From Stieleria neptunia (GTDB lineage Bacteria; Planctomycetota; Planctomycetia; Pirellulales; Pirellulaceae), in assembly GCF_007754155.1 (NCBI RefSeq), contig NZ_CP037423.1:6444567-6508566 (forward strand): a stretch of DNA of 64,000 nt, in the 5' to 3' direction. Positions 50,026 through 62,037 of the stretch are shown piece by piece (position 1 is the stretch's first letter; each line of letters begins with the position of its first letter). The notes under the pieces are model-generated. The model made no database searches. It was given only the letters and a program-made list of their open reading frames with translations, and was not told the DNA's origin. The position numbers and the translations under genes were made by a program.

Positions 50026-50565
50026 TTAGAGATCTTTGCGATGCATCATCCAGCGACGTTGAAGATCCATCACGATTCGCCGAACCGTTGGCGGCGGATC
50101 GACGTGTTCACCTTTGAATGCTTCTGGAAAGAACAAACCGAATCCTTTCGGTTCGATGCGACGCACGATCGCTTCGAGTTCGATCTCCGTTTTGTTCATC
50201 GTCAGCCGGGCGCGAAGTTCGTCGTTGATGTCCAGCGGGATCGTGCGGTCCTTGGGGACTTCCACAAACACACCGGTCATGCTGATGTTGGTCGGCTTGG
50301 ACTCACAGCGTTCTTTACCGGAGATCAGGGTGACGCGCAGCCCGCTGTCTTCGATGACGGGAACCCGGAACGACTCCCTGCGGTTTTCTTCTTGCGTCTG
50401 GGTTTCGGTTTCTTCGGGCGGTGAGAGCAGGTGCACGAAATCAACGAGCCCCTTGACCGACTTGGGATCGAAGGAGACGGATTTTTCGGGATCTTCGCTG
50501 CTGGAGATCTTCAACGTTTCGCCGTCATAGAAAATCTCAATGTCGCGTAGGGTGATTTCTGCCAT
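50026..50565 (-). CDS. PilZ-domain protein (probable c-di-GMP receptor)
   Basis: A 179-residue cytoplasmic protein. A leading domain of about 60 residues (ITLRDIEIFYDGETLKI) is followed by a PilZ barrel from about residue 62. The c-di-GMP signature is present: the Arg-rich RRESFRV segment and the strand motif NISMTGVFVEV (N-x-S-x-x-G). Its ATG overlaps the stop of the polyphosphate kinase gene by one base (TGATG), so the two proteins are made together. It may place polyphosphate synthesis under c-di-GMP control, which is inference. Confidence 0.88.
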   Translation of the reverse strand: MAEITLRDIEIFYDGETLKISSSEDPEKSVSFDPKSVKGLVDFVHLLSPPEETETQTQEENRRESFRVPVIEDSGLRVTLISGKERCESKPTNISMTGVFVEVPKDRTIPLDINDELRARLTMNKTEIELEAIVRRIEPKGFGLFFPEAFKGEHVDPPPTVRRIVMDLQRRWMMHRKDL

Positions 50566-52645: not shown

Positions 52646-53149
52646 ATGCCTTCGACGACCGCCAACGTGCCAAACCTCCGCATCGGCCTGGGTTACGACT
52701 CGCATCGCTTGGGTGCCGGGGGCCCGCTGCGGATCGGCGGCATCGACGTGCCGGCGGATCTGCACGCGATCGGTCACAGCGATGCCGACGTGCTACTGCA
52801 TTCGATCACCGATGCGTTGCTCGGCGCGATCTGCGCCGCGGACATCGGACGCCTGTTCCCCGACACCCGTGACGAAAACGCGGATCGCGACAGCCGCGAC
52901 TTCGTCCAAGCAGCGCTCGACCAAGTTCACCAGCGGGGACTGGGAATCGTCAACCTGGACTGCGTGATTCTGGCCGAGCGTCCCAAAATGGCGCCTCACA
53001 TCGACGCCATGCGGGGGCATGTCGCGGACATGTTGGGCATCGACGTCGATCGGGTCAGTATCAAGGCCAAGACCGGGGAAGGCGTCGGCGAAATCGGCAC
53101 GGGGCAGTCGATCGCCACCCGCGTCGTCGTGTTGTTGGCCGGTCGCTGA
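52646..53149 (+). CDS. ispF: 2-C-methyl-D-erythritol 2,4-cyclodiphosphate synthase
   Basis: A 167-residue enzyme of the MEP isoprenoid pathway that cyclises CDP-methylerythritol phosphate to the cyclodiphosphate. IspF forms trimers in the cytoplasm and uses a zinc ion. The metal-binding Asp/His are in GLGYDSHRLG, with the family block HAIGHSDADVLLHSITDALLGA and the Asp-rich LFPDTRDENADRDS. It continues to IVNLDCVILAERPKMAPHI, with TGEGVGEIGTGQSIATRVVVLL at the end. The start MPSTTANVPNLRIG gives the usual length plus about 8 residues. IspD is not adjacent. Confidence 0.95.
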   Translation: MPSTTANVPNLRIGLGYDSHRLGAGGPLRIGGIDVPADLHAIGHSDADVLLHSITDALLGAICAADIGRLFPDTRDENADRDSRDFVQAALDQVHQRGLGIVNLDCVILAERPKMAPHIDAMRGHVADMLGIDVDRVSIKAKTGEGVGEIGTGQSIATRVVVLLAGR

Positions 53150-54253: not shown

Positions 54254-55372
54254 TCAACCGACCGACATCCCGTCCGCACTGATCGGGGCCGCACTGATCC
54301 CGTCCGCACTGATCCCGTCCGCACTGATCGGGGCCGCACTGATCGGCTGCAGCGTGTCGACGTCGCGACTGTCGTCGAATTGTCGGCGAATCGCCATGAA
54401 GGTGGTTTCGATTTCCAGAAAGGCATCGACGACATCGGGATCAAAGTGGCTGCCGCGACCTTGGACGATGATCGATTCAGATCTTTCGTGCGAATAGGCG
54501 TCTTTGTAGACTCGGTTCGTCGTCAACGCGTCGTACACATCCGCCAGCGCCACGATCCGCGCCGACAGCGGAATGGCATCTCCAACCAGGCCTTCGGGGT
54601 AACCGCTACCGTCATATTTTTCGTGGTGCGAAAGCGCGATGTCATACGCCATCTTCAAAAACGATGCTTCGGGGCTCCGTTGAATCGCCCCTTGCAAGGT
54701 CTCGGCGCCGATCCGGGGATGTGCCTTGATGGCCAGGAATTCTTCGTCGGTCAATTTGCCCGGTTTCAACAGCACGGCATCGGGCACGCCGACTTTCCCG
54801 ATGTCGTGCAGGGGGCTGGTTTGATAGATCAGTTGAATGTACTGGGGTGTGATCGTCTCGGCGAACTTGGGGTTGTGTACCAACTGTTCGGCCAGACAAC
54901 GCGAGTAGCATTGAACGCGTTCGATGTGATGTCCGGTTTCCGGGTCACGACTTTCGGCCAGCTTTGCCAGCGAAAAAATCAACGCCTCGCGGGTCTCCAA
55001 TTGCAGCACGCGTTTGCCGACGTTGACGCGGGCGATCAACTCGCTGGGATGAAACGGCTTGCTGACGAAATCATCGGCGCCAGAAACCAGCCCTTCGACG
55101 CGTTGGGCAACCGAATCCATCGTGGTCAACAGAATCAAATAGACGTAGCCGCCGAAATCACCGTTTCGAATCTGGCAACAGAGGTCGATGCCGTTCATTT
55201 CCGGCATCTGCCAATCGCTGATCACCAAACGGGTATTGCCTTCTTTGAGCCGCTCGAGCGCCCCGCGCCCGTCTTCGGCGGTGACGACCTCAAAACCGCC
55301 TTGTCGCAACGTCGACGAGATCATTTGTCGAATGATGGGATCGTCATCGACAATCAAAATGCGGTCATTCAT
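54254..55372 (-). CDS. Response regulator with HD-GYP c-di-GMP phosphodiesterase domain
   Basis: A 372-residue protein. The receiver domain (1-125) has Asp10/Asp11 in ILIVDDDP and phosphoacceptor Asp53 in LVISDWQMPEMNG, with the Lys in FVSKPFHP. The HD-GYP domain (about 130-325) shows the metal ligands in ESRDPETGHHIERVQ, LHDIGKVGVPD, and HHEKYDGSGYPEGL, the GYP signature. All look intact, so it should hydrolyse c-di-GMP. The C-terminus ends in repeats of ISADG/ISAAP. Its ATG overlaps the stop of the Amt-histidine kinase gene by 4 bases, making it the direct output of that kinase (inferred). Confidence 0.93.
   Translation of the reverse strand: MNDRILIVDDDPIIRQMISSTLRQGGFEVVTAEDGRGALERLKEGNTRLVISDWQMPEMNGIDLCCQIRNGDFGGYVYLILLTTMDSVAQRVEGLVSGADDFVSKPFHPSELIARVNVGKRVLQLETREALIFSLAKLAESRDPETGHHIERVQCYSRCLAEQLVHNPKFAETITPQYIQLIYQTSPLHDIGKVGVPDAVLLKPGKLTDEEFLAIKAHPRIGAETLQGAIQRSPEASFLKMAYDIALSHHEKYDGSGYPEGLVGDAIPLSARIVALADVYDALTTNRVYKDAYSHERSESIIVQGRGSHFDPDVVDAFLEIETTFMAIRRQFDDSRDVDTLQPISAAPISADGISADGISAAPISADGMSVG
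54268..54345. repeat. 15-base tandem repeat at the 3' end of the HD-GYP gene
   Basis: About five units alternating CCCGTCCGCACTGAT and CGGGGCCGCACTGAT encode the repeated ISADG/ISAAP C-terminal tail. Units are multiples of three bases, so copy changes keep the frame. It resembles the 15-base repeat in the RDD gene in unit length and position. Confidence 0.8.
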
Positions 55373-58300
55373 GGTTCAACCTCGGCCAGTTTTTGATCAA
55401 TCCAATCGAGACAGCGCTCGATTTCCGATTCCAGTTGTTTCAATGTTTGTGGCAAATCTTTCTGGTCACCGTTTCGGACGGCGGTTTCGATCGCTCCGGC
55501 AAGCGTGGCAATTGGGACCGCCGACATCGTGGCCGCAACGCCCTTGAGTCGATGGGAACTGGCGCCGGCCCGTTGCAGATCTCCGTCACCAATGGCGTCA
55601 CTCAACCCGCCAAATTGTTCCGGCAATTGCCGTTTGAACATGCGAATCACTTCGTAGGATGTCGCTTCGCTGTCGCCGCAACGCTGAACGACTTCGTGCC
55701 AATTCAATGCCGCTTCCGACGCAAGATGGCTGAACGGGCCGACCGGCGCGTTGGACCGGGTGTCGAGGACCGCGTTGTTGTCGATCGGTTCGGCTTCGAA
55801 CACATCGCGGAGGGTGCGCGCGAACACCGTTTTCGAAATCGGCTTGGCGAGGTGGGCGTTCATTCCGGCGCGAAAACAACGTTCGACCTGTCCCGCCAAC
55901 GCTTGGGCGGTGACCGCGATGATCCGCAGCGGACGATCCGGCGGCAAATCGAGTTCACCGGCCTGATGCAATCGCCGCAGCTCGCGGGTCGCATCAAAGC
56001 CATCCATCACCGGCATCTCGCAATCCATCAGGATCACGTCATAGCTGGCGTCTTTCGCCATCGTGATGGCCGCCGCGGCCGATGCGACGGTGTCGGCTCG
56101 AAAATCAAGTCGCTCCAACAGTTCCGATGCCACGGTGGTGTTGATTTCATTGTCGTCGACGACCAGCACCCGACGTCCCTTGCCGATGGATTCGTCGCCC
56201 GCGTCCCGGCGATTGCGATTGGGTTGCCCCAACTTCGGCAAATCACTCAGCGACGTCTCGATCGCTTCCAACAACGCAGACGGCCGGACGGGCTGGCTGA
56301 GCAGCACTTCGGCGGGGTGCTCGCGGTCCGATTCACCGATCAGGACGCGTCGTTTGATCGCCTCCAAACCATCCGGCCACGTCTCATCGGCCGGCCAACC
56401 GATCAAACTCGTTTCGACCATTAACAGGTCGATGTTGTCGTTGGATCCGTGGACCGCCCGGAGCGTTTGCCGGGCCGAGGGGACGGAACTGGCCACCAGA
56501 CAGTTCGCGCCCCAACGTTCCAGATAGTCCTGAATGACATCGGTTTCCCCGTTGGCCGGTGCGATCAACAGCACCGACTTTCCTGCGATTCGCGAATGAC
56601 TTCGCTGCGCCAGGATATTGGTTTTGGGCACGTCTTCGATCGTCGCATCCGGTTCCATCGCGGGGATCACACAGCAGAACGTGGAACCGACATCGAGTTC
56701 GCTGTGGACCCGAATCCGACCGCCCATCGCGACCACCAACTGCTGGCAGATGTTCAGTCCCAATCCGCTGCCGCCGAAACGCCGCGTGGTTGACGCGTCG
56801 GCTTGCGCGAACGCTTCGAAGATCTTCGATTGTCGCTCCAGCGGGATGCCGATGCCGGTGTCGCTGACCTCGATCTGCAACCATTGATCACCGCCCGACG
56901 CGGCGGCATCGGGTGTCGATTCGGATCGGTCCAGCCGCACCCGCAAATTGACTCCGCCGACCAGCGTAAATTTGATCGCGTTGCTGATCAGATTGATCAG
57001 GATTTGTTGCAGCCGCACCGGATCGCCGAGCAGGATTTCGGGAACGCCGTGTTCGAAATGCGCTGACAGATGCAGCCCCTTGGACTTGGCTCGGTGGTAC
57101 AGCATTTCGACGGTTTCGTCCACCAGATCGACCAGTGAAAACGGAACCGATTCCAGTTCCAATCGGCCGGCTTCGATCTTGGAAAGGTCCAGAATGTCGT
57201 TGATGATCGCCAACAACGTGGTGGACGACCGTCTGGCGATTTGCAAGTACTTGGCTTGTTGTCGCGAAAGTTCACCCTCGTCCATCAATTCCAACATCGA
57301 GACGATGCCGTTGAGCGGGGTTCGCATTTCGTGACTCATCCCCGCCAGAAACTCACTCTTGGCGTTGTTGGCCGCCTCGGCCTGTTCTTTTTGCAAACGC
57401 AGTTGCTCGGACGACAACCGCTGGGTGATGTCAACAACGGTGCCTTCGAAATACCGGACACTTCCCTCTTCGTCTCGAACCGCACGGGCGTTTTCGCTGA
57501 TCCAGATCTCCGATCCGTCGCGGCGTCGCAATCGGGCTCGGAAATCGCTGACGCGATCGTGCAGCGCGATTTCACGCAGAAACTGATCGCGTGTTTCGCC
57601 GTCGGCGTAGACCTCGGCGGCAACATTTCGAACCGACGCGTAAAGCTGTTCGGCGGATTCGTAGCCGCACAGTTTTGCCAACGCCGGGTTGGCGCTGCGA
57701 AACGATCCGTCGGGATACGTCTGGTAGATCCCCTCGACGGCGCCGTTGAAGATACTTTCGTATTGTTGCTGGGCCTCTCGCCGGCCGGCGAACTCCTGGT
57801 CCACCTCCGCAATCACTCGATTGTATGCCGCGGCGATTTGGCCGATTTCCGTAAACGGTTCGATCTTGACGCGGTGACTGAATTCGCGGCCCTTTCGGTG
57901 CCGAGACATCTGTGTCAACAGATCTTGCAGTTCAGAATTGGCTTGATGCTCCGCGATGTTCAACCCGATGTATTCATGTCGCCGCGGCACCCGCAGCGGA
58001 TACACCGCGTTGATGGCATACAAGACGACAAAGCTCAATCCGAACGCCCATGCGAACGCGGCGGCGCAGCCGTACGATTGCACCGCCAGCTGGCCCGCCC
58101 AATCGTTTCCGTTGCCCCACGCCGCCGGATCGGTCAACAACGCGATCGCCAACGTGCCCCAGACACCGGCGAATCCATGTGCCGGGATGGCGCCGATCAC
58201 GTCGTCGATCGCCAGCCGATGCAGCATCCACGTGGATGCCAGACAAATCACTGCGGCGATGCTGCCAACGATCAGCGAGGTAAAGGGGCTCAACAGATGA

Positions 58301-59133
58301 CACCCCGCGGTGACCGCGACCAGCCCGGCGATCACGCCGTTGCCAACCATCGCAACGTCCGGACGGCCCAATCGAAACATCACGATCGCCAAGGACGTGA
58401 TGCCACCCGCCGCAGCCGAAATCATGGTGTTGACCAAAATCTTCGGAACCTCGTCGGTCAGCCCCAATCCGCTGCCGCCGTTAAAGCCCAGCCAGCCGAA
58501 CCAAAGCACCACGATGCCGATCACGACCATCGGCAAATTGCTCGACTGGATCGCTCGGGGATGCGTGCCGAACCGCCCCAACCGGGGACCGACGATCAGA
58601 ACCGCCGCCAACGAAACCCAGGCCCCCACCGAATGCACCACGGTGGATCCGGCAAAATCGATGAACCCCAGCGACGCAAGCCACCCCGAACCGCTGCCCG
58701 CAACGATCCCGCCCCAGGCCCAGTGACCAAAGACCGGATACACGATCGCGCTGACAAAAACGCTGATGATCACGTAGCTGCGAAAACGAATCCGCTCTGC
58801 CACCGCACCGCTGATGATCGTCGTCGCCGTCCCGCAAAAGACGACTTGAAACAGAAAGAATGCCAACAAGCCCGACCCGACGTCGGCGCCCAACAAGAAA
58901 TGCGAGGAACCCAACCAGCCCGTCAGCGACGCGCCATACATCAATCCGAAACCGACGACCCAATACGCAATCGCCGAGACACAAATGTCGATTAAGTTCT
59001 TGATCGCGACATTGATGCTGTTCTTGGCCCGCGACATTCCGCTTTCAAGCAAGCAGAAACCGGCCTGCATCAACAACACTTGGCCGGTGCAGAGCAGGAC
59101 CCACAACAAATCAATGGATGTCAGATCGTTCAT
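55369..59133 (-). CDS. Ammonium transporter fused to hybrid histidine kinase (Amt-PAS-HK-REC-REC-Hpt)
   Basis: A 1254-residue membrane sensor. Residues 1-385 form an Amt/MEP ammonium channel with the key residues Asp159 (FIDFAGSTVVH), His167 and His319 (DDVIGAIPAHGFAG), equivalent to E. coli AmtB Asp160 and the twin histidines. A linker reading EIGQIAAAYNRVIAEVD (about 429-445) precedes a PAS domain at about 460-575. HisKA has phospho-His601 (GMSHEMRTPLNG). An HATPase follows (about 700-830; DTGIGIP, GGSGLGL). A degenerate receiver (853-964) lacks the acidic pocket, and a true receiver has Asp1037 (VILMDCEMPVMDG). Hpt closes it with His1194 (SSHRLKG). Such Amt-kinase fusions are known from planctomycetes (the anammox Kuenenia Amt5). 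The position aligning with AmtB Phe215 is Leu here. It overlaps the HD-GYP gene by 4 bases. Confidence 0.94.
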   Translation of the reverse strand: MNDLTSIDLLWVLLCTGQVLLMQAGFCLLESGMSRAKNSINVAIKNLIDICVSAIAYWVVGFGLMYGASLTGWLGSSHFLLGADVGSGLLAFFLFQVVFCGTATTIISGAVAERIRFRSYVIISVFVSAIVYPVFGHWAWGGIVAGSGSGWLASLGFIDFAGSTVVHSVGAWVSLAAVLIVGPRLGRFGTHPRAIQSSNLPMVVIGIVVLWFGWLGFNGGSGLGLTDEVPKILVNTMISAAAGGITSLAIVMFRLGRPDVAMVGNGVIAGLVAVTAGCHLLSPFTSLIVGSIAAVICLASTWMLHRLAIDDVIGAIPAHGFAGVWGTLAIALLTDPAAWGNGNDWAGQLAVQSYGCAAAFAWAFGLSFVVLYAINAVYPLRVPRRHEYIGLNIAEHQANSELQDLLTQMSRHRKGREFSHRVKIEPFTEIGQIAAAYNRVIAEVDQEFAGRREAQQQYESIFNGAVEGIYQTYPDGSFRSANPALAKLCGYESAEQLYASVRNVAAEVYADGETRDQFLREIALHDRVSDFRARLRRRDGSEIWISENARAVRDEEGSVRYFEGTVVDITQRLSSEQLRLQKEQAEAANNAKSEFLAGMSHEMRTPLNGIVSMLELMDEGELSRQQAKYLQIARRSSTTLLAIINDILDLSKIEAGRLELESVPFSLVDLVDETVEMLYHRAKSKGLHLSAHFEHGVPEILLGDPVRLQQILINLISNAIKFTLVGGVNLRVRLDRSESTPDAAASGGDQWLQIEVSDTGIGIPLERQSKIFEAFAQADASTTRRFGGSGLGLNICQQLVVAMGGRIRVHSELDVGSTFCCVIPAMEPDATIEDVPKTNILAQRSHSRIAGKSVLLIAPANGETDVIQDYLERWGANCLVASSVPSARQTLRAVHGSNDNIDLLMVETSLIGWPADETWPDGLEAIKRRVLIGESDREHPAEVLLSQPVRPSALLEAIETSLSDLPKLGQPNRNRRDAGDESIGKGRRVLVVDDNEINTTVASELLERLDFRADTVASAAAAITMAKDASYDVILMDCEMPVMDGFDATRELRRLHQAGELDLPPDRPLRIIAVTAQALAGQVERCFRAGMNAHLAKPISKTVFARTLRDVFEAEPIDNNAVLDTRSNAPVGPFSHLASEAALNWHEVVQRCGDSEATSYEVIRMFKRQLPEQFGGLSDAIGDGDLQRAGASSHRLKGVAATMSAVPIATLAGAIETAVRNGDQKDLPQTLKQLESEIERCLDWIDQKLAEVEP

Positions 59134-59798: not shown

Positions 59799-60842
59799 CT
59801 AGAACAACGTCACGGATTGCGATCGCAACCAAGCCCGCTGCTGCGGTGTCAGCGCGTCGAAGGACGTTGTGGTGATCTTGGTCGTCGCGTCGATCAAGGC
59901 AGCCTGCGAAAGCCCGCCGTCGGCATTCACCACGCCGAAGCTGACGCCGAACAGTGATGCATCGCGCAGGTCGGCGCCGCGGAGGTCGGCGGCTGAAAAA
60001 TCGGCGCCTTCCAAATCCGCCCCGCGAAGGTTCGCATCACGCAGATCGGCGGATTGCAAATGCGCGTTGGAAAGATTGGCGCCACGAAAATCCGCGCGAC
60101 GCAGGTTCGTTTCCCGCAGATCCGCGTTGCGCAACAGCGAGTTGGATGCATGGAGCTTTTCCAGATCCAGACCGCGCGCTTCCAAACTCAACAGATCACG
60201 GCCGCTGAAATCACGTTGGCGAATCAGCCGAGCGGCGTCTTGCTTTCCCAGACTCGCGGCGATGTACCGCTGCTCTTTCCAAGGATCGGCCCCGTTGTGG
60301 TAACCGGCTTCGGATTCCCAATAACCGAGTCGATCGTCGGACAGAAACTCGATGCGTTGCAGCCACTTGACGCTCTTGTAAAAGTACTTGCCCGGCACGA
60401 CCATCCGTACCGGTCCGCCGTGTTCGCTCGACAAGGATTCGCCGTCGGCTTTCAACGCGATCAAGGGATCCAGGGTCAACAGTTCCTGCAGCGGCAGCGA
60501 CGTGCTATGCGAGCGTTCGCTTCGAGCGACAAACGAAACAAATCGGGCCTGCGGATTCCAAAGCGGCTGACCGTTTGGCGCGGCGACAAGTTCCGCAAAC
60601 CGAACGCCTTCAAACTCCATCTGCAACTTGGACCACCGCGTCACGCAATGCACATCGATCCGTCGTGTCGTTTGAGGCATCGTCGCCAGTTGGTGCAAAT
60701 CCACACGACGCTCGGTCCACACCTGGCCGCCAACCGTGATCGTCCACGGAAGATCGCTGTGGCGGGGCGCCCGTTCGCCGACGACGGGCCAACGATCGCG
60801 GCCGACCAATTGCTGATGGGGAGGGAGCGGTTTGGGGTTCAT
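59799..60842 (-). CDS. Molybdopterin-binding oxidoreductase domain fused to pentapeptide repeats
   Basis: A 347-residue protein. Residues about 28-205 match the sulfite-oxidase-type molybdopterin domain (Oxidored_molyb): LPWTITVGGQVWTER, the molybdenum-ligand Cys66 in RRIDVHCVTRWSK, HGGPVRMVVPGKYFYKSVKWL and the closing RLGYWESEAGYHNGADPWKE. Residues about 215-315 are pentapeptide repeats of A(D/N)LRx type (NADLRETNLRRADFRGANLS), which fold into a beta-helix. No Tat or Sec signal is visible, so it may stay in the cytoplasm, unlike most relatives. The start chosen is just after a long tandem repeat. I know of no established function for this fusion. Confidence 0.85.
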   Translation of the reverse strand: MNPKPLPPHQQLVGRDRWPVVGERAPRHSDLPWTITVGGQVWTERRVDLHQLATMPQTTRRIDVHCVTRWSKLQMEFEGVRFAELVAAPNGQPLWNPQARFVSFVARSERSHSTSLPLQELLTLDPLIALKADGESLSSEHGGPVRMVVPGKYFYKSVKWLQRIEFLSDDRLGYWESEAGYHNGADPWKEQRYIAASLGKQDAARLIRQRDFSGRDLLSLEARGLDLEKLHASNSLLRNADLRETNLRRADFRGANLSNAHLQSADLRDANLRGADLEGADFSAADLRGADLRDASLFGVSFGVVNADGGLSQAALIDATTKITTTSFDALTPQQRAWLRSQSVTLF

Positions 60843-60858
60843 GCGTGGGGGGGAGATT

Positions 60859-60994
60859 AGGAGACAAGGAGACAAGGAGACAAGGAGACAAGGAGACAAG
60901 GAGACAAGGAGACAAGGAGACAAGGAGACAAGGAGACACGGAGACACGGAGACACGGAGACACGGAGACACGGAGACACGGAGACACGGAGATG
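60859..60994. repeat. 8-base tandem repeat (AGGAGACA then CGGAGACA)
   Basis: Ten units of AGGAGACA (60859-60938) are followed by six of CGGAGACA (60939-60986) and a variant unit, all in exact 8-base register. It lies directly upstream of the molybdopterin-protein start. The plus strand is purine-rich, so the transcribed leader would be pyrimidine-rich (CTCCTTGT). The array is likely unstable in length. Confidence 0.92.
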
Positions 60995-61131
60995 AGGAGA
61001 GCTCGCTAGAGGTAGTGTGTCAACGCTATGTTTGACAGTAGTGGAACGGGTACAGCGTTTCGGCGGGGCGAGATGCATTGCCGAATGTCTTGGCGAGACA
61101 CCCACACGCGCCGTACAACAGCGACTTAAAG

Positions 61132-62037
61132 TCACTCCGGCGCCAATTTCAATTGTTCGACCAGGTCCACCATCGGGTCGGTCAGCAATCGTCCCTTCCG
61201 CCACATCAACACGATCCTGCGCTGACCAAGTTTGTCGCTGAGTGATCGTGAGGCGAGTTTCTTGCTCAACACGCCGTTGCTGCGGCCGGCCAGGATGCCG
61301 ATCCCCATGCCGGCGGCGACACAGGCGATGGTAAAGGCGCTGTTGTCGGTTTCGACGCTGATCTTGGCCTGCAAACCTTCCCGGTGCAACGCCTGGTCCA
61401 GCGCGTCTCTTCCATGCGTCCCCGCCAACGTGACCACCAGAGGGTGCTCGGCCAACTCCTCCAGCCCCGCCGCACGTGACTTCATGTAGGGATGCGATCT
61501 CTTCGCCACCGCCAGAAATTCGACCGTGTAGGCCGGTTCATAGTGAAGGTGGGCTGACTTGCGGTCCGGCCCCGGTTCCAAGGCCATCGCGAGGTCGGCT
61601 TGGTCGTCCATCAGCAACTCTTCGGCCCGGCGATCGCTGCCCTGACGAATCACCAAGTGGTTGGGGTGCCGTTTGTGAAACGCCGCCAACGGAGCCGCAA
61701 GGTCTTCGAGCATCATCCGCGCCCCGGCGACCACACGTATCGTTTGGTCGATCGAGGATCGTGCCACCACATCAAATGTCGATTCGACCTGAACCAAGAT
61801 CGAACTGACATGTTCGTACAAGGTCTCCGCCGCCGCGGTCGGCTCGACATGCCGTCCCGCCCGCGCAAACAACTCCACCCCATAAACCTTCTCCAACGCC
61901 TGGATGTGTTGCCAGACCGACGGCACCGAGAGGTGCGAAACGCGGGCCGCCGCCGCGTAACCGCCTTCTTGCATCACCAACTGAAACGTCCGCAGTTGAG
62001 CGAAATTCAAATCTTCGGACTGGATCGAACGCGGCAT
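61132..62037 (-). CDS. LysR-family transcription regulator
   Basis: A 301-residue regulator. The winged helix-turn-helix covers residues 1-62 (LNFAQLRTFQLVMQEGGYAAAARVSHLSVPSVWQHIQALEK). The co-inducer domain follows from about 90 to 295 (TIRVVAGARMMLEDLAAPLAAFHKRHP, then FTIACVAAGMGIGILAG). It is CysB/CbbR-like only in general form, and its ligand is unknown. The ATG at MPRSIQSEDLNF starts the DNA-binding domain. The frame continues upstream over the shared promoter. It is divergent from a dicarboxylate-type dehydrogenase gene, its probable target. Confidence 0.92.
   Translation of the reverse strand: MPRSIQSEDLNFAQLRTFQLVMQEGGYAAAARVSHLSVPSVWQHIQALEKVYGVELFARAGRHVEPTAAAETLYEHVSSILVQVESTFDVVARSSIDQTIRVVAGARMMLEDLAAPLAAFHKRHPNHLVIRQGSDRRAEELLMDDQADLAMALEPGPDRKSAHLHYEPAYTVEFLAVAKRSHPYMKSRAAGLEELAEHPLVVTLAGTHGRDALDQALHREGLQAKISVETDNSAFTIACVAAGMGIGILAGRSNGVLSKKLASRSLSDKLGQRRIVLMWRKGRLLTDPMVDLVEQLKLAPE

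Follow-up and report, generated by a model that had tools for sequence, protein, structure and literature searches.

Ks-Amt5, the ammonium sensor histidine kinase of 'Candidatus Kuenenia stuttgartiensis' (PDB 6EU6), is the only kinase fused to an ammonium transporter (Amt) domain for which we found biochemistry, and two papers call its response regulator 'yet to be identified' (PMC5764959, PMC12918730). Ks-Amt5 is described as a protein of 679 amino acids in which Amt is joined straight to the kinase, with no HAMP, PAS, receiver or Hpt domain (PMC5764959). Here we analyze a two-gene locus of the planctomycete Stieleria neptunia, located in a 64,000-nucleotide stretch of DNA (contig NZ_CP037423.1, positions 6,444,567 to 6,508,566 of the forward strand). 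This whole stretch is called the window below, and coordinates refer to it unless they carry the handle of another locus. Gene A encodes, like Ks-Amt5, an Amt fused to HisKA and HATPase domains, and gene B, directly downstream, encodes a response regulator with a receiver and an HD-GYP domain. We find that A and B are a real, conserved gene pair. Judging by sequence, the two partners are probably cognate, and we consider it fairly likely that together they would form a dedicated two-gene phosphorelay leading from ammonium to cyclic diguanosine monophosphate (c-di-GMP). This reading is based on the anatomy of the two proteins, the invariance of their residues, the conserved pairing of the genes and the dependence of that pairing on Hpt.

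Gene A (55369-59133; minus strand, as are all features of the pair) encodes a hybrid kinase of 1254 amino acids. Its Amt domain (residues 10-399; 57937-59106) scores 375.3 bits against PF00909 (cut-off 23.2) and 384.1 against TIGR00836 (cut-off 343.3), and with both family profiles passed it belongs to the Amt/Mep/Rh family. It is followed by a HAMP-like connector (residues about 403-443; 57805-57927), a PAS domain (468-571; 57421-57732; PF13426, 37.2 bits), a HisKA domain with the phospho-accepting His601 (591-656; 57166-57363; PF00512, 84.9 bits), a HATPase_c domain (703-825; 56659-57027; PF02518, 96.6 bits), a degenerate receiver-like stretch, a receiver domain with the acceptor Asp1037 (989-1103; 55825-56169; PF00072, 74.8 bits) and an Hpt domain with His1194 (1161-1241; 55411-55653; PF01627, 51.6 bits). 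The degenerate stretch, of approximate limits (residues about 855-960; 56254-56571), has no Pfam match and carries Glu907 at the acceptor position. Gene B (54254-55372) encodes 372 amino acids, with a receiver (residues 5-117, acceptor Asp53; 55022-55360; PF00072, 97.2 bits) and an HD-GYP domain (HD_5, residues 136-314; 54431-54967; PF13487, 100.7 bits, cut-off 27.2). The HD-GYP domain has H149, H189-D190, H218, H249-H250, the GYP motif and D278, and we take its HD residues to be metal ligands. The start of gene B lies over the stop of gene A in an ATGA (55369-55372), a 4-base overlap, and a Shine-Dalgarno-like GAGG (55380-55383) is found inside gene A, 7 bases 5' of the gene B ATG. A promoter scan at the locus gave one site, against 1.4 expected by chance.

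A preliminary description of the locus had reported both reading frames, the ATGA overlap and the order of the domains, and these are borne out by the sequence and by Pfam. Its list of domains (Amt, PAS, HisKA, HATPase, receiver and Hpt) stands, save that it overlooked the HAMP-like connector and spoke of receivers in the plural, where Pfam gives the single one at residues 989-1103.

Conservation of the pair and its link to Hpt

The preliminary description would have been refuted had A and B adjoined each other in this genome alone, but the adjacency recurs elsewhere. Relatives of gene A were sought in 60 relatives, in 396 genomes of the order and in 392 of the phylum, with 31 of the 396 and 27 of the 392 genomes passing E 1e-140. 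Among the Amt kinases that carry a fused Hpt and whose downstream DNA is long enough (n = 34), a receiver-HD-GYP gene lies directly downstream in 30, and two more have a receiver-PAS-GGDEF-EAL gene instead (at L173, 9051-11249 on the plus strand, recognized by Pfam; at L174, by motif and reading). The remaining two, L179 and L191, have neither neighbor. By comparison, such a neighbor is found at two of the 65 Amt kinases without a detected Hpt, namely an HD-GYP gene at L175 and a receiver-GGDEF gene at L142, where GGDEF was called by motif and, among the neighboring regulators, is confirmed by Pfam in L173 only. The L175 kinase is apparently of a different type, as the matching protein record P0083 lists no HisKA. 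When 16 of the 65 were tested with Pfam, no Hpt was found in them. The co-variation of Hpt with a c-di-GMP-type neighbor (32/34 vs. 2/65) gives indirect support to the earlier proposal that the fused Hpt hands phosphate to the HD-GYP receiver, a transfer that we infer.

Left out of these counts were L078 and L081 (which share contigs with L025 and L163, respectively), L192 with its broken kinase, and ten Amt kinases that showed no partner and had less than 1200 bases of DNA downstream of them. At L192 the kinase is split over several frames next to an intact HD-GYP gene, and the kinase of its near-twin L178 is unbroken, which could reflect either an assembly error or decay.

In an alignment of gene A with the 33 further Hpt-bearing Amt kinases, D159, H167, H319, H601, N718, D758, D1037 and H1194 are invariant (34/34). 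They include the five residues that the preliminary description had singled out in gene A (Asp159, His167, His319, His601 and Hpt His1194). Likewise named there, Asp53 of gene B and its HD-GYP residues are invariant in all 30 regulators. The position of Glu907 holds Asp in 27 of the 34 kinases, Glu in three, Cys in one and a gap in three. The translational coupling that had been proposed stands as far as the 4-base overlap at this locus goes, but with mechanically chosen starts such an overlap is kept in just nine of the 30 pairs (ATGA in seven, GTGA and TTGA in the other two). The remaining 21 pairs abut, overlap by more, or are separated by a gap of up to 138 bases, and a strictly conserved 4-base overlap is thus ruled out.

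Conserved adjacency could also be inherited synteny without partnership, with A signaling elsewhere and B answering another kinase. Many of the loci are indeed kin, and 31 of the 561 locus pairs have at least two flanking genes in common. Yet when the 34 loci are linked by their common flanks they fall into 20 gene neighborhoods, 16 of which hold the HD-GYP pair, so that the pairing is poorly explained by recent kinship alone and the pair has persisted despite turnover of its flanks. Moreover, 63 of the 65 Amt kinases without a detected Hpt have no such partner, a separate lineage combines a kinase core and an HD-GYP of its own, and stand-alone Hpt genes adjoin the same HD-GYP family (both described below). 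In view of this evidence we regard synteny without partnership as very improbable and favor cognate partners. The adjacency also exceeds chance, because A-B is the sole place in the host genome where one of its nine HD_5 genes adjoins one of its 14 Hpt-bearing frames. This sole coincidence also rules out that Hpt kinases generally come with such a gene, and HD-GYP is likewise missing next to L246 and L247, two other hybrid Hpt kinases. Within the genus, gene A is found in eight of 14 genomes, and gene B at E 1e-70 in none of the other six.

The HD-GYP family and the predicted relay

Relatives of gene B were detected at E 1e-70 in 26 of the 60 relatives. Among the 32 matches listed, 22 lie away from the Amt kinases that we found, and we examined 12 of these 22 regions. 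Five of them follow an Amt-free kinase with a C-terminal Hpt, and in another five a small stand-alone Hpt gene lies directly upstream, an arrangement that adds to the support for transfer from Hpt to the HD-GYP receiver. The family thus tends to follow Hpt whatever the sensor, with Amt looking like an interchangeable input. The Amt kinase L168 and the Amt-free L197 are neighbors in both the kinase tree and the regulator tree. To judge from the sequences, the wiring of an Amt kinase to an HD-GYP regulator probably arose twice, besides L175, because L033 and L034 have the Amt and PAS part in common with the others whereas their kinase cores lie in a separate supported group (starred support 96, vs. 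starred 97 for the main group) and their HD-GYP clusters (starred 98) with two further ones from the host genome, the trees being quick or FastTree trees without bootstraps.

We suggest a relay that is putative in its ammonium ligand, in the direction and specificity with which phosphate is transferred, in its c-di-GMP substrate and in the sign of its effect. External ammonium would bind the Amt module and thereby change the shape of the HAMP-like connector and PAS, and this change would set the autophosphorylation of His601. Phosphate could then pass from His601 to Asp1037, from there to His1194 of Hpt, and finally to Asp53 of gene B, where phosphorylation would alter the hydrolysis of c-di-GMP by the HD-GYP domain. 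The predicted output of gene B is probably c-di-GMP breakdown. If the system behaves like Ks-Amt5, low ammonium would raise phosphorylation, and should phosphorylation activate the HD-GYP, c-di-GMP would fall when ammonium is low. The host genome, whose single contig measures 10.98 Mb and includes three Amt genes, has seven GGDEF matches, so that c-di-GMP can probably be made in this organism.

Alternatively, the phosphorelay may be cognate while its output is not c-di-GMP hydrolysis, gene B acting on another cyclic dinucleotide or mainly through protein contacts. The substrate range of an HD-GYP cannot be read from its sequence, and the best NCBIfam match of gene B, to the NosR family NF053512, reaches 167.9 bits, far under the cut-off of 400. 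On the other hand, the HD-GYP residues are intact in 30/30 regulators, the partner at L173 is a GGDEF-EAL protein and so again concerned with c-di-GMP, and a PilZ-domain gene lies nearby. A different output is in our opinion distinctly unlikely, and we retain c-di-GMP breakdown as the probable one.

Several points weigh against a dedicated relay for ammonium. HD-GYP enzymes can take other cyclic dinucleotides. Amt is not the only setting of the HD-GYP family, as the 22 matches away from Amt kinases illustrate, two of the 12 regions examined (L202 and L205) have no Hpt alongside, and at L199 and L203, which are Amt-free Hpt kinases, no HD-GYP adjoins. The Fisher test of the association between Hpt and neighbor (p 3e-21) ignores kinship and is descriptive only, and the Hpt profile behind the 34/65 split derives from 12 HD-GYP-paired kinases, all the in-house profiles (Amt, kinase, Hpt, receiver and HD-GYP) having been built from 12 paired loci. 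In addition, the flanks were compared over a few kilobases on each side.

Two further features of the window are worth recording. The PilZ-domain gene (50026-50565, minus strand; 35.7 bits vs. a cut-off of 22.5), which encodes a possible c-di-GMP receptor, lies about 3.7 kb past gene B on the same strand, with an opposite-strand reading frame (52646-53149) in between. Upstream of gene A (60610-61204, minus strand), an SPCLLVSL-like peptide is repeated in overlapping frames, which points to a short tandem DNA repeat.

The HAMP-like connector and the ammonium signal

A segment of about 60 residues after Amt is common to the 34 kinases and is also found in GGDEF, chemoreceptor-like and other fusions. 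Its strict motif is present in 116 of the 143 Amt frames of at least 600 amino acids at the annotated loci. It is missing from all 14 Ks-Amt5-like loci (L281-L294), and a connector universal in Amt fusions is thereby ruled out. We aligned and scanned 92 of 115 segments. All of these keep an E, G, L, N, E, H and a later N; for the first N, E and H this is partly a matter of selection, as the motif used to pick the segments already required N, E and H. Pfam HAMP is the leading family, with 59 of the 92 segments matching at E up to 1 and four for the next family; the connector of gene A itself scores 14.5 bits, under the cut-off of 25. Its structure model consists of a helix, a 13-residue connector and a second helix, with a fold like that of solved HAMP domains. 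Eight of the 13 best structural matches are titled HAMP, and the other five are sensor kinases or chemoreceptors that presumably hold HAMP. After these 13 the Z score falls from 5.4 to 2.6, a comparison to be read with the caution that helical models get middling Z by chance. The predicted HAMP-like connector between Amt and PAS is new here.

The ammonium site of Ks-Amt5 comprises Q24, E31, N47, D50, T51, T109 and T112, and its pore is blocked by F27, Y30 and F34 (PMC5764959). In gene A, Q23, E30, N46, D49 and T105 are identical to the corresponding site residues, S108 is similar and I50 is different, and the five identical residues show little or no variation among the 34 fusions.

It could still be that A and B are cognate and that the signal is not external ammonium, Amt serving as a transporter or an anchor and the kinase being set by PAS or by the nitrogen state of the cell (e.g., through PII). 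In 19 of 32 standalone Amts (29 loci plus L001, L002 and L023) the main site residues are found as well. They thus mark an Amt subfamily rather than a sensor and have to be rejected as proof of one, ammonium sensing by gene A being plausible. Of the three pore blockers, F27 is kept as F26, and Y30 and F34 are replaced by L29 and M33; since two of the three are lost, gene A may still transport. In addition, the PAS domain sits between Amt and the kinase, and a related kinase core with HD-GYP occurs without Amt at L196-L198. HAMP and DHp domains are mostly dimers. The Amt of Ks-Amt5 is a trimer (PMC5764959), and this mismatch is a further difficulty for an Amt that would signal through them. What speaks for Amt as the input is that the fused Amts group together (support 86, below the starred level, again in a tree without bootstraps), apart from 33 of the 37 rows labelled standalone, and that the connector motif follows Amt in the 116 of 143 frames, as expected if movement of Amt is what the kinase reads. 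Four short-frame Amts fall inside the fused group (L093, L094, L109 and L124), of which L093 and L094 adjoin a separate kinase gene and L109 runs to the end of its contig. Taken together, we find a signal other than external ammonium unlikely and keep to ammonium as the plausible one.

The unfused arrangement at L093 (5983-9947, plus strand) and L094 (5980-9767, plus strand), both in metagenome-assembled genomes of Phycisphaeraceae, consists of Amt-connector and hybrid kinase as two adjacent genes, with a gap of 29 and an overlap of 4 between them, respectively. Other Amt receptors joined by the connector were also observed. At L037 (3931-6198, plus strand), Amt and the HAMP-like connector are followed by a methyl-accepting chemotaxis protein signaling domain (Pfam MCPsignal, 116 bits), and L038 (4158-6038, minus strand) and L039 (4181-6064, plus strand) show the same build by motif. 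All three loci lie in relatives of the host genome, and their products are candidate ammonium chemoreceptors. A cyanobacterial Amt-kinase-receiver protein at L136 (3399-7022, plus strand) is fused to an adenylate/guanylate cyclase domain (PF00211, 76.3 bits).

Among the Amt matches we examined 14 Ks-Amt5-like places. The protein at L281 is 100% identical to Ks-Amt5 over the 397 residues searched, its linker agrees with the HAMP-less description, and no receiver or HD-GYP gene was found beside it. Small receiver genes lie beside some other Amt kinases, for example at L126, L149 and L294, and the profiles used gave no output domain in them.

Significance and comparison with other known systems

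At 30 of the 34 Amt-Hpt kinases a partner with a predicted enzyme activity lies next door, which makes ammonium-dependent phosphotransfer to a defined regulator directly testable. If the proposed relay is true, it would become possible to name both the regulator and the output of an Amt kinase, nitrogen supply in planctomycetes would be tied to c-di-GMP through external sensing, and external ammonium may help to decide the lifestyle of the cell. A common HAMP-like connector would moreover stand behind a range of Amt receptors, including kinases, GGDEF-EAL and chemoreceptor-like proteins.

Among solved structures, the nearest Amt domain is that of PDB 8QJ3, 8QJ4 and 8QPF ('Ammonium transporter'; 372 bits, vs. 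303 for 6EU6), and the match of gene A to the 8QJ3/8QPF protein extends through the connector region. The output of that protein is a fused GGDEF, with no kinase and no phosphorelay, and hence an enzyme opposite to gene B, c-di-GMP being common to both. We found no paper on 8QJ3/8QPF in the open PubMed Central literature. As this is an Amt-GGDEF protein, Amt control of c-di-GMP is not new in itself. We point out that Amt with a GGDEF motif was also seen at 18 loci of Proteobacteria and sulfate reducers (L095, L103, L110-L112, L117, L121, L129, L131, L132, L135, L137, L139, L143, L144, L151, L153 and L157). Three of these were read, L095, L117 and L144, and have an EAL-like part after GGDEF, confirmed for L144 against solved structures.

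Hybrid kinases of the BarA/RcsC type have the HisKA-HATPase-receiver-Hpt order of gene A, in which the relay residues are intact. Gene A scores 424 bits against the NCBIfam BarA model, under the cut-off of 890, and differs in its Amt sensor and its HD-GYP partner, the partner of BarA being a DNA-binding regulator. The layout of gene B is found in RpfG, a receiver-HD-GYP regulator that is paired with RpfC, a hybrid kinase carrying Hpt; this likeness is one of domain layout, drawn without sequence comparison, and RpfC senses a fatty-acid signal through another membrane domain. In Azospirillum brasilense, the nitrogen state is linked to c-di-GMP by contacts of PII with two c-di-GMP enzymes, which is internal sensing, and no Amt kinase figures in the part of that account that is accessible (PMC7646526).

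We recognized no description of the A-B pair in the open PubMed Central literature searched, a collection without preprints and with few subscription papers, and as far as this open-access literature shows, a conserved two-gene Amt phosphorelay to an HD-GYP regulator is new. Set beside these known systems, the locus inclines us, if only slightly, to see a distinct class of ammonium receptor, built as Amt-HAMP-PAS-hybrid kinase-Hpt with an adjacent regulator predicted to degrade c-di-GMP. The logic of this class would have arisen at least twice in planctomycetes, alongside the Amt-GGDEF-EAL fusions of other phyla, so that Amt receptors joined by the connector would repeatedly have come to control c-di-GMP.

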